Positions 1 to 28,636 of a DNA stretch of 30,206 nt are shown in pieces. Within the stretch, counting starts at the first letter, position 1, and every line of letters begins with the position of its first letter. Where the stretch lies: positions 1-30,206 of the IMG/VR virus record IMGVR_UViG_3300047562_003274, one strand, 5' to 3'. Both the position numbers and the translations under genes were made by a program. Origin of the DNA: a virus. Under the pieces are notes generated by a model that saw nothing but the letters and a program-made list of their open reading frames with translations, was not told the origin of the DNA and did not search any database.

Positions 1-182
1 TAATTAGATAGCTCTAGTATTTCTGGTTGCTCTAATAAAGCTTGATATATTTCGGTCTTTATGTGAGTTAAAACCTTTGGCAAATTAGACGAAAATGATT
101 TATTGATTTCTTTTGACAACGCTAAAAATCCTTGTTGCGTTATCTCTTGAGTAGGATTTAATAAATCTATACTGATGCTCAT
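1..182 (-). CDS. Hypothetical protein, partial (C-terminus beyond window)
   Basis: Only the first 60 codons are inside the window. The protein begins MSISIDLLNPTQEITQQG and continues with a mixed helical, charged sequence containing no motif I recognise. The ATG overlaps the stop of the upstream gene as ATGA (stop 179-181, start 180-182), so translation is probably coupled. A GGAAAAG stretch about 8 bases before the ATG can serve as ribosome binding site. Its place at the distal end of the appendage operon suggests a virion or assembly protein, but that is inference from position only. Confidence 0.75.
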   Translation of the reverse strand, partial: MSISIDLLNPTQEITQQGFLALSKEINKSFSSNLPKVLTHIKTEIYQALLEQPEILELSN

Positions 183-22885: not shown

Positions 22886-22897
22886 GTTATATACACA

Positions 22898-25945: not shown

Positions 25946-26214
25946 GTTTTGCTCCTATTATGACTAATGATTTTAAAAAAGGTTTCGGCGTAAGAGTCCT
26001 CGTTGTGTTGAATAAACCCGTGATGTTCACGACATAAAGTAATACCGTTATTAATGTGATATCTTAACCCTGGAAATTCGCTCCATTTCTTAATGTGGTG
26101 AACTTGCAATTTCTTTTTGGCCTGACATCCTGGCCATTGACAGGTATATTTGTCTAATGCCTTTATTTTCTGTCTCCATTGCTTGTATTGCGCGTCTTGA
26201 TAATTTCTAAACAT
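25942..26214 (-). CDS. HNH endonuclease (90 aa)
   Basis: A 90-residue HNH nuclease. Cys25 and Cys30 (TCQWPGC), then LQVHHIKKW (His39, His40), INNGITLC (Asn55/56, Cys61) and REHHGF (His64, His65) give the HNH beta-beta-alpha metal fold, with two Cys-x-x-Cys/His zinc knuckles. HNH proteins of this size next to terminase in HK97-like phages activate the terminase at the packaging site. Start ATG 26214, overlapping the upstream gene by 8 bases; the downstream gene overlaps by 4. It could also be a homing nuclease, but the tight operon position favours packaging. Confidence 0.92.
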   Translation of the reverse strand: MFRNYQDAQYKQWRQKIKALDKYTCQWPGCQAKKKLQVHHIKKWSEFPGLRYHINNGITLCREHHGFIQHNEDSYAETFFKIISHNRSKT

Positions 26215-27013
26215 CTTCTGGTAGTAAAAAAGGTTTATCTACTTTATTATCTTCATAAGTATGATACTCTGTCAAGTTTTCTCTAGACTTATCTGTGGCC
26301 ATACGTAAAATTTCCATTTCTCGCCCTTGTTTTTCTCTTATCTCTTCGTCCTCGAGCATTCGTATAAGCCCCACCCAACTACTTTTCCCGTCCTCTATTC
26401 TTTTGATTCTTTGTTCTCTAGTGGCTTTTAGATCCTTGCTGATCTTTTGTTGTTCATTAAGCAGTTTAGTGTACTCGTTTGTGTAGTTAGCAATACTATT
26501 TCGGGCGAAACTTAATTGGGTTTCTAGGTTAGCTAATTTGGGGATATCCCGGTCTTCTTCATTTTTTGCATATTCTTTATCTACTTGGGATTGTAGTTTT
26601 TCGGTATCTGTAATGTGGCGTTTGCGCTCTTTCATAGATCGATTAATAAGAATGTCTATGGTGATAAATTGTTTGATTTGTAGTTCTTCAGCAGGTAAAA
26701 CGTCTTCTCTAAATTGTTTGACCAGATTGATCCAGGTATTTTCAAAATATTCTAGTTCGCCGCTGGCTTCATCAAATTGTCGTTTGATTTCTGTCCAAAA
26801 GTTTTTGCTGTGTAGTTTTATTCTTAGGGATTCGTAACCTTCGGGATCTGCTAGATATTCTAGGCGGGCATCTTCTATATATCTTTTAATTGGGGCAGGA
26901 GTACGGTTTAAATTGCGGGATATATCTGCTATACTTAAAGTTTTAAAATTTTCCTGGATATATTTTTGCTCTTCTAAAGATAGCTGGCCACGCTTTTTGT
27001 TGATTTTAGTCAT
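26207..27013 (-). CDS. terS: Candidate terminase small subunit (268 aa)
   Basis: The N-terminal 50 residues (QLSLEEQKYIQENFKTLSIA, then DISRNLNRTPAPIKRYI) form a helix-turn-helix of homeodomain/resolvase type, suited to DNA recognition. The middle (115-210) is a long Glu/Lys/Gln-rich coiled coil (DTEKLQSQVDKEY, YTKLLNEQQKISKDL). This HTH plus oligomerisation helix plus tail, directly before HNH and TerL, is the expected layout of a small terminase that recognises the packaging site. No ATPase motif. It overlaps the sigma-like gene by 8 bases and the HNH gene by 8. A transcription regulator is an alternative. Confidence 0.7.
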   Translation of the reverse strand: MTKINKKRGQLSLEEQKYIQENFKTLSIADISRNLNRTPAPIKRYIEDARLEYLADPEGYESLRIKLHSKNFWTEIKRQFDEASGELEYFENTWINLVKQFREDVLPAEELQIKQFITIDILINRSMKERKRHITDTEKLQSQVDKEYAKNEEDRDIPKLANLETQLSFARNSIANYTNEYTKLLNEQQKISKDLKATREQRIKRIEDGKSSWVGLIRMLEDEEIREKQGREMEILRMATDKSRENLTEYHTYEDNKVDKPFLLPEDV

Positions 27014-27644
27014 CTTCTTTGATGCCCTTTAGTATTTGTTGTATAGCTTGTACTAGATTTTCTTGTTGTTGCTTGGGGATTTTTTCTCCATGCTTGAATC
27101 TTAAATACGTTTCACGAAATTTTGTGGGCAATTTTTGCTCTATAAGTTCAAATATTTGTTTTTTAAGAGCTTGATGTTCTGTGGGGCTTTTGCTGTCTGT
27201 AATATTAAAGTCTAGGTCGTTAATACTTACAGGTTTCATAATATTCTTTTTGGCTATATTTCTAGAGGCCCAGCTAGTATATAAACTACATTCTTCAATA
27301 TTGCTAAACTCTGTACATTGATTGTTAGATTTAGAATAATGCTTATCATAAAACGGGCATGTTAGGCAAGGTTTGTCGGGCCTTTGATAATTATCTCGTT
27401 TATAATTAAAAAGTCTATTTCTTACGTGGGTCCATAGGAAATTTTCTAAAGGTCTGCTACTGTCGTATTTGTCTAATCCTTCTATAGCAAAGATGGCGGC
27501 TTGTTGTTTCATATCCTCATAGGTATGATAACCAAATTTAAATTTGTTACCTAGTCTTTTTGTTATATTATCTAGAGCAGAAAGGAAGGCTTCCTCGTCT
27601 ACTCCGTTAATCAGTTTCTTTTTGTTCTTCTTTTTTTTGCTCAT
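27006..27644 (-). CDS. Sigma-factor-like protein with cysteine cluster (212 aa)
   Basis: Residues 38-85 (GYHTYEDMKQQAAIFAIEGL, DKYDSSRPLENFLWTHVRN, RLFNYKRD) match sigma70 region 2 style: D-x-x-Q-x-A-x-x-A-I-E-G-L-D-K-Y-D followed by F-x-W-T-x-V-R-N-R, the core-binding and -10 recognition part. A cysteine cluster follows (C93, C96, C110, C119), probably a zinc-binding insert. The C-terminal helices (residues 155-205, LIEQKLPTKFRETYL, then LVQAIQQILKGI) could be a reduced region 4. Regions 1 and 3 are missing. Known phage analogues are gp55-like late sigma factors. The N-terminus is lysine-rich. It is near the head of the late operon, overlapping the 47-residue gene by 38 bases; a late transcription factor is the likely role. 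Confidence 0.78.
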   Translation of the reverse strand: MSKKKKNKKKLINGVDEEAFLSALDNITKRLGNKFKFGYHTYEDMKQQAAIFAIEGLDKYDSSRPLENFLWTHVRNRLFNYKRDNYQRPDKPCLTCPFYDKHYSKSNNQCTEFSNIEECSLYTSWASRNIAKKNIMKPVSINDLDFNITDSKSPTEHQALKKQIFELIEQKLPTKFRETYLRFKHGEKIPKQQQENLVQAIQQILKGIKEDD

Positions 27645-27750
27645 CTAATAGTTCTGCTACGGATTTTCCTTCTGGTTTTTCTAGGTCTTTTGAAACATCC
27701 AAACTAGCACACGCTTTGACGGATAGTTGGGAATTAACCGATTTAGTCAT
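27607..27750 (-). CDS. Small charged protein, first gene of the late operon (47 aa)
   Basis: A 47-codon gene: MTKSVNSQLSVKACASLDVS at the start, then KDLEKPEGKSVAELLDEQKK and a Lys/Glu-rich tail to a TAA at 27609-27607. The ATG at 27750 is preceded by AAGGAGAAACC, the strongest Shine-Dalgarno in this region, which makes it a real gene. It overlaps the sigma-like gene by 38 bases in another frame, and that gene has no good ribosome binding site of its own, so it is probably translated by coupling. No family recognised. It may simply serve as the leader that lets ribosomes load, or modulate the sigma-like protein. Confidence 0.75.
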   Translation of the reverse strand: MTKSVNSQLSVKACASLDVSKDLEKPEGKSVAELLDEQKKEEQKETD

Positions 27751-27759
27751 GGTTTCTCC

Positions 27760-27790
27760 TTGCAAAAATATGTTACTTTAGTACTATACT
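27760..27790 (+). promoter_or_regulatory. Rightward promoter of the divergent region
   Basis: TTGCAA (27760-27765) and TATACT (27785-27790) with a 19-base spacer, which is longer than ideal. The -10 lies inside the palindrome 27775-27795. A start near 27797 would give a leader of about 33 bases to ATG 27830, with AAAGGG as ribosome binding site. Confidence 0.5.
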
Positions 27791-27795
27791 AAAGT
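27775..27795. promoter_or_regulatory. Perfect 21-bp operator-like palindrome
   Basis: Arms ACTTTAGTA (27775-27783) and TACTAAAGT (27787-27795) around a 3-base centre (CTA). It sits in the divergent intergenic region, overlapping the -10 elements of both promoters. Symmetry and place fit a repressor or activator site. Confidence 0.75.
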
Positions 27796-27813
27796 TAATA
27801 CACTGTATGTCAA
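27783..27813 (-). promoter_or_regulatory. Leftward promoter of the late operon
   Basis: On the minus strand TTGACA (27813-27808), perfect to consensus, and TATAGT (27788-27783) with a 19-base spacer. A start near 27776 would leave about 26 bases to ATG 27750. The long spacer suggests it is weak without an activator. Confidence 0.6.
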
Positions 27814-27829
27814 AAAAAGGGTCATTAAA

Positions 27830-28030
27830 ATGGCTAATTATAAAAAGTGGAGTAGGGCAGAGAAGCAATTTATCCTGGATCATTTTGAATCTTTCAGTGA
27901 CAAATATATAGCAGCAAGAATGAGCGCCCTAAGCGGAGAAAATATAACAGACAACATGATTCGACAGCAACGTAGAGCCATGAAAACGGTTAAAAAAAGA
28001 GGCAGGCCCAAGAAAAAACAGGATTCGTAA
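27830..28030 (+). CDS. Small DNA-binding-like protein with AT-hook tail (66 aa)
   Basis: A 66-residue basic protein. WSRAEKQFILDHFESFSDKY, then IAARMSAL and GENITDNMIRQQRRAMK reads like a small homeodomain-type helix-turn-helix, and the C-terminal KKRGRPKKK is an AT-hook-like element for the minor groove of A/T-rich DNA. The helix pattern (W/L-S-x-x-E-x-x-F/Y-I-x-x-x-F) is shared with the start of the candidate small terminase at 26207-27013. Start ATG 27830 is supported by AAAGGG 8 bases upstream. As the first rightward gene beside the palindrome, it is the natural candidate to bind it. Role inferred. Confidence 0.75.
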   Translation: MANYKKWSRAEKQFILDHFESFSDKYIAARMSALSGENITDNMIRQQRRAMKTVKKRGRPKKKQDS

Positions 28031-28607: not shown

Positions 28608-28636
28608 TTGACAATCCCAAAAACTGCCGATATACT
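28608..28636 (+). promoter_or_regulatory. Sigma70-type early promoter
   Basis: TTGACA (28608-28613), 17-base spacer, TATACT (28631-28636). Near-consensus; a start near 28643 leaves about 30 bases to ATG 28674 with AGGA 8 bases before it. Confidence 0.85.

Follow-up and report, generated by a model that had tools for sequence, protein, structure and literature searches.

A conserved putative divergent promoter module at the predicted early/late boundary of a family of uncultured phages

Genes at the locus

Within the window, the complete 30,206-nucleotide stretch of viral DNA analyzed here (IMG/VR record IMGVR_UViG_3300047562_003274), two divergent genes are separated by an 80-bp gap, with the leftward ATG at 27750 and the rightward ATG at 27830 (Table 1). 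No relatives of the window DNA were found among phage isolates, and its terminase has only distant relatives in isolates (22-35% identity among the records listed).

The rightward gene encodes a 66-aa protein that was confidently modeled as a three-helix helix-turn-helix (HTH) domain, in line with the small AT-hook-like neighbor named in the original prediction: the predicted protein is basic and carries an AT-hook-like tail. The AT-hook profile PF02178 scored 17.1 bits against it (cut-off, 17.4) and was matched at E ≤ 0.1 by 6 of 11 family members. The nearest fold is the DNA-binding domain of GcrA (VIA-align Z-score = 7.4, rmsd 2.2 over 48 residues), a Z-score that does not prove kinship; a Foldseek search with the model gave no match at E ≤ 0.001. 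A first scan of IMG/VR yielded 26 relatives of this protein; a second one, based on a profile, yielded 330, and the best 80 of these were retained. None was detected among phage isolates or in 84,980 bacterial and archaeal species genomes, the latter result giving no sign of a prophage state.

The second leftward gene, downstream of one for a small acidic protein, encodes a predicted phage sigma factor. Its match to Sigma70_r2 (20.4 bits) lies below the Pfam cut-off of 24 and is accompanied by a weak sigma70-ECF match; both Sigma70_r2 and phrog_1740 were matched by all 11 family members. The structural model, of moderate confidence (pLDDT 69), retrieves mostly sigma factors, with weak E-values, and the searches yielded neither relatives among phage isolates nor, by sequence, solved relatives. 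A third leftward gene (26207-27013, minus strand) encodes a 268-aa protein with an N-terminal HTH-like stretch beginning KKRGQLSLEEQKYIQENF, conserved in relatives and possibly a further regulator. To the left of the module in these relatives, the small protein, the sigma factor and the HTH-like protein keep their positions; beyond them lie HNH and ERCC4-like nucleases, recognized by sequence inspection, and then the terminase. Two relatives, L228 (17824-18816) and L230 (17316-18293), encode a nucleotide-sugar epimerase/dehydratase-like protein (ALITGVTGQDGSYLAELL) near the HNH gene; unlike in these, no such gene was seen near the HNH gene of the window.

Table 1. Features at the divergent locus and one right-arm promoter, in window coordinates
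Feature	Position	Strand	Basis or remark
Composite bidirectional promoter module (predicted), rightward -35 to leftward -35	27760..27813	.	Kept in 46/49 non-redundant upstream regions
Rightward -35, TTGCAA	27760..27765	+	TTGC/TTGA conserved
Rightward -10, TACTAT, 16-nt spacer	27782..27787	+	TAnTAT at 16 nt in 42/46 relatives
Leftward -10, TAGTAT, 16-nt spacer	27786..27791	-	Promoter scan; 16 nt in 41/46 relatives
Leftward -35, TTGACA	27808..27813	-	Conserved in relatives
Shared core, TACTATACTA, TAnTATAnTA class	27782..27791	.	Sequence comparison
Palindrome, ACTTTAGTA-CTA-TACTAAAGT	27775..27795	.	Lineage-specific arms, possible operator
Embedded late-promoter-like motif, GTGTATTA	27796..27803	-	53 nt upstream of leftward start codon
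66-aa HTH protein, AT-hook-like tail RGRPKK	27830..28030	+	Structure model and profile matches
47-aa acidic protein, first leftward gene	27607..27750	-	Position conserved in relatives
Predicted phage sigma factor, 212 aa, sigma-70 region 2	27006..27644	-	Profile match; second leftward gene
Right-arm early promoter of the ordinary consensus type, TTGACA-17-TATACT	28608..28636	+	Promoter scan

Conservation and register of the promoter module

Comparison of the regions upstream of relatives of the 66-aa gene revealed the pattern TTGC-[16]-TAnTAT(AT)AnTA-[16]-TGTCAA in 46 of 49 non-redundant regions, that is, those left at <85% identity among the distinct regions. Because the loci were chosen by protein only, the promoter was not selected for in this count. 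The layout comprises TTG(C/A), a 16-nt spacer, a core of either TAnTATAnTA or TAnTATATAnTA, a second 16-nt spacer and TGTCAA, and spans 54 bases in the window and 54-57 bp across relatives; the remaining three regions lack it. Ten records of 100-244 kb gave 11 module matches, one each in nine and two in the tenth, and their reversed controls gave none. In a pattern scan of the viral collection, 98 of the 120 matches listed were flagged as lying beside the 66-aa gene family and 2 more were found to do so by inspection; the invariance of core letters in such a pattern-selected set is partly by construction, and the unbiased figures are those of the protein-selected 46/49 set.

One relative of 237,915 bases (L232, G009:C1:174000-180000) has a further module-like match (record position 176723-176778), which recurs in L160 and L191 and adjoins a small Cys-rich, zinc-finger-like gene; it may be a second bidirectional promoter or a chance match. 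Upstream of the match in L037 and L041, only the rightward TTGACC-16-TACTAT is kept and the leftward half is seemingly missing, which would make these loci natural controls for a switch.

The original prediction described two opposed promoters with 19-nt spacers that overlap on a palindrome. Promoter-like elements indeed run in both directions there, and the 19-nt pairs exist (TTGCAA at 27760-27765 with TATACT at 27785-27790 rightward; TTGACA at 27813-27808 with TATAGT at 27789-27784 leftward), but the conserved register is the 16-nt one. The same sequence also holds TTGCAA-16-TACTAT rightward and TTGACA-16-TAGTAT leftward, the latter picked by the promoter scan as well. The 16-nt register is probably the one used because both core lengths, 10 and 12 bp, leave 16 nt to each -35 and because 16-17 nt, and almost never 19, separate the two elements of ordinary early promoters in these phages (0-1 of 111 TTGACA sites in right arms fit at 19 nt). 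Given the conservation of the 16-nt register across relatives (Table 1), and given that in the 12-bp core the hexamer read at 19 nt ends in A rather than in the important -7 T, the 19-nt spacers were set aside.

The two -10 hexamers of the window share 2 bp of the 10-bp core, whereas in the 12-bp core they abut without overlap; this -10 region is near-symmetric and readable on both strands, as in bidirectional promoters with shared or overlapping -10 elements. All near-invariant positions of the module fall within the -35 and -10 elements. The rightward -35 overlaps the leftward ribosome-binding site GCAAGGAG (27763-27756), and TTGC/TTGA is kept even where that site has been lost, for example, in L006 and L038. 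The fourth position of the hexamer is T in 86 of 92 cases and A in 2, and TAnTAT at spacers of 16-17 nt was absent from the 111 TTGACA sites in right arms. The core thus seems to be under constraint beyond ordinary promoter use: with T at position 4, both -10 elements may be weak, which would fit the low basal activity reported for bidirectional promoters (PMC12825309), or another protein may read the core.

The palindrome is present as originally described, with perfect 9-bp arms around a 3-nt center, and it is, as claimed, the only one of its kind, occurring once in the record with up to three mismatches allowed. It is also the sole inverted repeat in the window with arms of at least 9 bp and a loop of at most 6. 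A first-order Markov model of the window predicts about 1.25 comparable inverted repeats per 30 kb, so that the palindrome is notable only through its position between the divergent genes. Its center (27785) lies 1.5 bp away from that of the conserved core. The perfect 9-bp arms are absent in most relatives. On account of this absence and of the chance expectation, the palindrome was rejected as a conserved feature, and the long arms of the window are a lineage-specific extension with a possible operator role.

Such an operator is the basis of a doubtful but serious alternative, in which a dimer of the 66-aa protein would bind the palindrome, cover both -10 boxes and repress or switch both promoters. 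The palindrome adjoins the gene for a predicted HTH protein with a basic tail, and in the class with the 10-bp core, the complementarity of the flanks is 91, against 74 ± 6 for flanks re-paired between phages (p = 0.005; p = 0.001 in an earlier test on a smaller sequence set). Read from their respective -35 elements, the two spacers are also modestly alike at zero shift (0.359 versus 0.301; p = 0.011 against re-paired spacers, uncorrected for the five shifts), and an operator could account for the conserved T at position 4 of both hexamers. However, the arm signal is carried by 5 of 27 sequences, the dyad centers of which differ between phages, and arm complementarity in the 12-bp-core class does not exceed that of re-paired controls (p = 0.58). 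The arms are missing in most relatives, including the entire 12-bp-core class, although the HTH protein is always present, and chance alone would supply about one such repeat in a window of this size. Elsewhere in the genome, the TCAACCTT dyad is no commoner than its reversed control, with zero mismatches found only at the module, and no iterated repeats or repeated-operator array were found beside the element. Binding of the 66-aa protein at the locus is plausible. Across its family, the tail reads GRR in 18 of the 22 proteins associated with a 12-bp core and GRP in the other four, a strong co-variation of tail (GRP/GRR) with core length that is confounded by descent.

Predicted early and late arms and the embedded motif

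The module marks a sharp border between two promoter regimes. Rightward TTGAC-17..19-TAnnnT reaches a density of 10.69 per 10 kb in the right arm, compared to 0.75 for the leftward orientation there and 0.45 and 0.78 per 10 kb in the left arm, which amounts to a 14-24-fold higher density of sigma70-like promoters than in the other three combinations of arm and direction. Two relatives, 223 and 230 kb long, have a structural left arm, and small, mostly rightward genes make up their right arm. A different motif, GTGTAT, precedes 78 of 439 non-redundant left-arm genes, mostly at 40-55 nt from the start codon (5 in the reverse-complement strand control), and occurs in 1 of 168 right-arm upstream regions. 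From this left-arm enrichment over both the strand control and the right arm, GTGTAT is a probable phage late promoter; like the motifs of late-sigma systems, it is found before late but not early genes. Among the papers searched, none was found to describe GTGTAT as a phage late promoter. The border between late leftward and early rightward arms that the original prediction had placed here is supported by promoter densities, the distribution of GTGTAT and the gene content of the arms.

Candidate late promoters of the GTGTAT form in the window lie on the minus strand at 22896, 20691, 17561, 15057 and 4251, each 24-52 nt ahead of a left-arm gene; the one near 22896 precedes the portal gene. The end of the right arm, between 28081 and 30065, holds about a dozen G+C-rich hairpins, in which a run of C and a run of G, in either order, enclose 3-8 nt. 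Some of them lie inside predicted genes; the 27 kb of the left arm contain a single such match, at 233.

The same kind of motif is embedded in the module itself. Of the 49 non-redundant modules, 23, that of the window included, have a left-facing GTGTA within the leftward spacer (0.24 expected) and 26 do not; 2 modules have it in the rightward spacer. Where the core is 12 bp long, the embedded motif is mostly GTGTAC, a form rare at other late sites. Judging from the co-occurrence of motif and gene, the phage sigma factor would be the protein that reads GTGTAT.

The embedded motif bears on another, rather unlikely, alternative, namely, that the element is a compact divergent sigma70 pair without a dedicated regulator or a functional late promoter, conserved through the promoter and ribosome-binding constraints that are packed into the 80-bp gap. 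The confinement of near-invariant positions to the -35 and -10 elements fits this explanation, and known bidirectional promoters function without a regulator (PMC12825309). It leaves unexplained, however, the set offset of GTGTA in nearly half of the modules, the T instead of A at position 4 and the constant presence of the HTH gene as a neighbor.

A replication origin or other structural DNA element at the arm boundary is very improbable: an A+T-rich dyad between diverging arms, present about once per genome, would suit that role, but what is conserved is a set of promoter elements, spaced as in promoters, and no iterated repeats lie alongside. Also very improbable is a MerR-type switch, in which a spacer-bound dimer twists 19-nt spacers into register, as SoxR does at a bidirectional promoter (PMC12825309). 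Pairs at 19 nt do exist in the window, but the operator dyad of MerR-type promoters lies inside a conserved spacer of 19-20 bp. Here, the conserved register is 16 nt, the dyad is centered on the -10 region, the 12-bp core gives A as the last base of the hexamer read at 19 nt, and the 66-aa protein shows three helices without a match to MerR.

A predicted early-to-late switch and its relation to known systems

The reading that we favor, with a probability of about 0.62, is that the element combines, at the early/late boundary, a bidirectional early promoter with a late promoter that is embedded in it and reinforces itself. It starts from what was read in the sequence, namely, geometry, conservation, the two promoter regimes, the embedded motif and the sigma-factor domain. 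From these, we infer which polymerase would act on which element, as well as mutual exclusion, feedback and binding of the 66-aa protein. Two sigma70-type promoters would face outward over one A+T core (TTGC-16-TAnTAT to the right, TTGACA-16-TAnTAT to the left), and host polymerase would occupy the module in one orientation at a time; the coupling geometry foreseen in the original prediction holds, in that a single protein or polymerase bound there would extend over both -10 elements. Rightward initiation would yield the 66-aa HTH/AT-hook protein, and leftward initiation the 47-aa protein and the phage sigma factor. Acting on the embedded left-facing GTGTAT, the sigma factor would make leftward initiation reinforce itself and occlude the rightward promoter, so that the passage from early to late transcription would work as a latch. 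Binding of the 66-aa protein, most likely to the A+T core or the spacers, would bias the choice of direction. The embedded late motif, the position of the sigma gene as the second leftward gene and the conservation of the whole module had not figured in the original prediction.

This reading is weakened by the 26 of 49 modules without GTGTA in the leftward spacer, by the three upstream regions without a module and by the T at hexamer position 4, a difference from the ordinary early promoters of these phages; the part played by the sigma factor is weakened by its score under the curated cut-off and the moderate pLDDT of its model. Since dozens of uncultured phages have a close copy at the corresponding place, the module seems to serve a large phage family as its early/late switch. 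More tentatively, it could represent a new type of switch, in which the overlap of two exclusive host-sigma promoters, together with an autoregulated phage-sigma promoter, times the early-to-late change and, across a large family of uncultured phages, the small HTH/AT-hook protein tunes a de-tuned TAnTATA core; we consider this possible rather than likely. Bidirectional promoters are a recently recognized class, known chiefly as an outcome of -10 symmetry. In the present module, selection appears to have kept the overlapping arrangement as such in many phages, at the one place where the choice of direction would decide between early and late development, and one short fragment brings together predicted promoters of both kinds, an early pair and a late one, and a sigma factor of a widespread uncultured phage family.

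Compared to the DNA-binding domain of Caulobacter GcrA, the 66-aa protein has a similar three-helix fold, at a Z-score in the range of common helical matches; unlike GcrA, it ends in an AT-hook-like tail, and 66 residues leave no room for the second domain of GcrA. In lambda-type divergent control regions, a small DNA-binding protein is encoded beside opposed promoters, as it is here; the module differs from these in lacking both an array of repeated operators and any sign of a prophage state.

The Grainger laboratory described bidirectional promoters in which both directions use one -10 element and stimulation of one direction can repress the opposite one (PMC12825309, PMC10268837). Opposing polymerases cannot bind these promoters together and compete when one side is activated, and their start sites are commonly 18, 10 or 23 bp apart, with small variations noted (PMC12825309). 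The module resembles them in its near-symmetric -10 region and in the divergent transcription expected from it, a membership assigned by sequence. It differs in keeping both -35 elements at a fixed 16-nt spacing, in a register that predicts starts 15 or 13 bp apart (in the window, near 27794 rightward and 27779 leftward), and in its location between phage arms with a late-promoter motif inside.

With phage late-sigma systems, the locus has in common a predicted phage sigma factor, host sigma70 early promoters and a short late element, which in the case of T4 gp55 is TATAAATA. The sigma factor gp36 of phiEco32 recognizes a single-element promoter, tAATGTAtA, and for the sigma gene of phage 7-11 (gp47), positive feedback from a late promoter has been proposed (PMC8948821). 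TGTAT(A) is common to the GTGTAT motif and the phiEco32 promoter. Unlike in phiEco32, 7-11 and T4, the sigma gene here would be driven from a bidirectional module that also bears the late motif, and its product has no close sequence relative among isolated phages. By analogy with both groups, the module would combine a bidirectional promoter with a phage late-sigma circuit.
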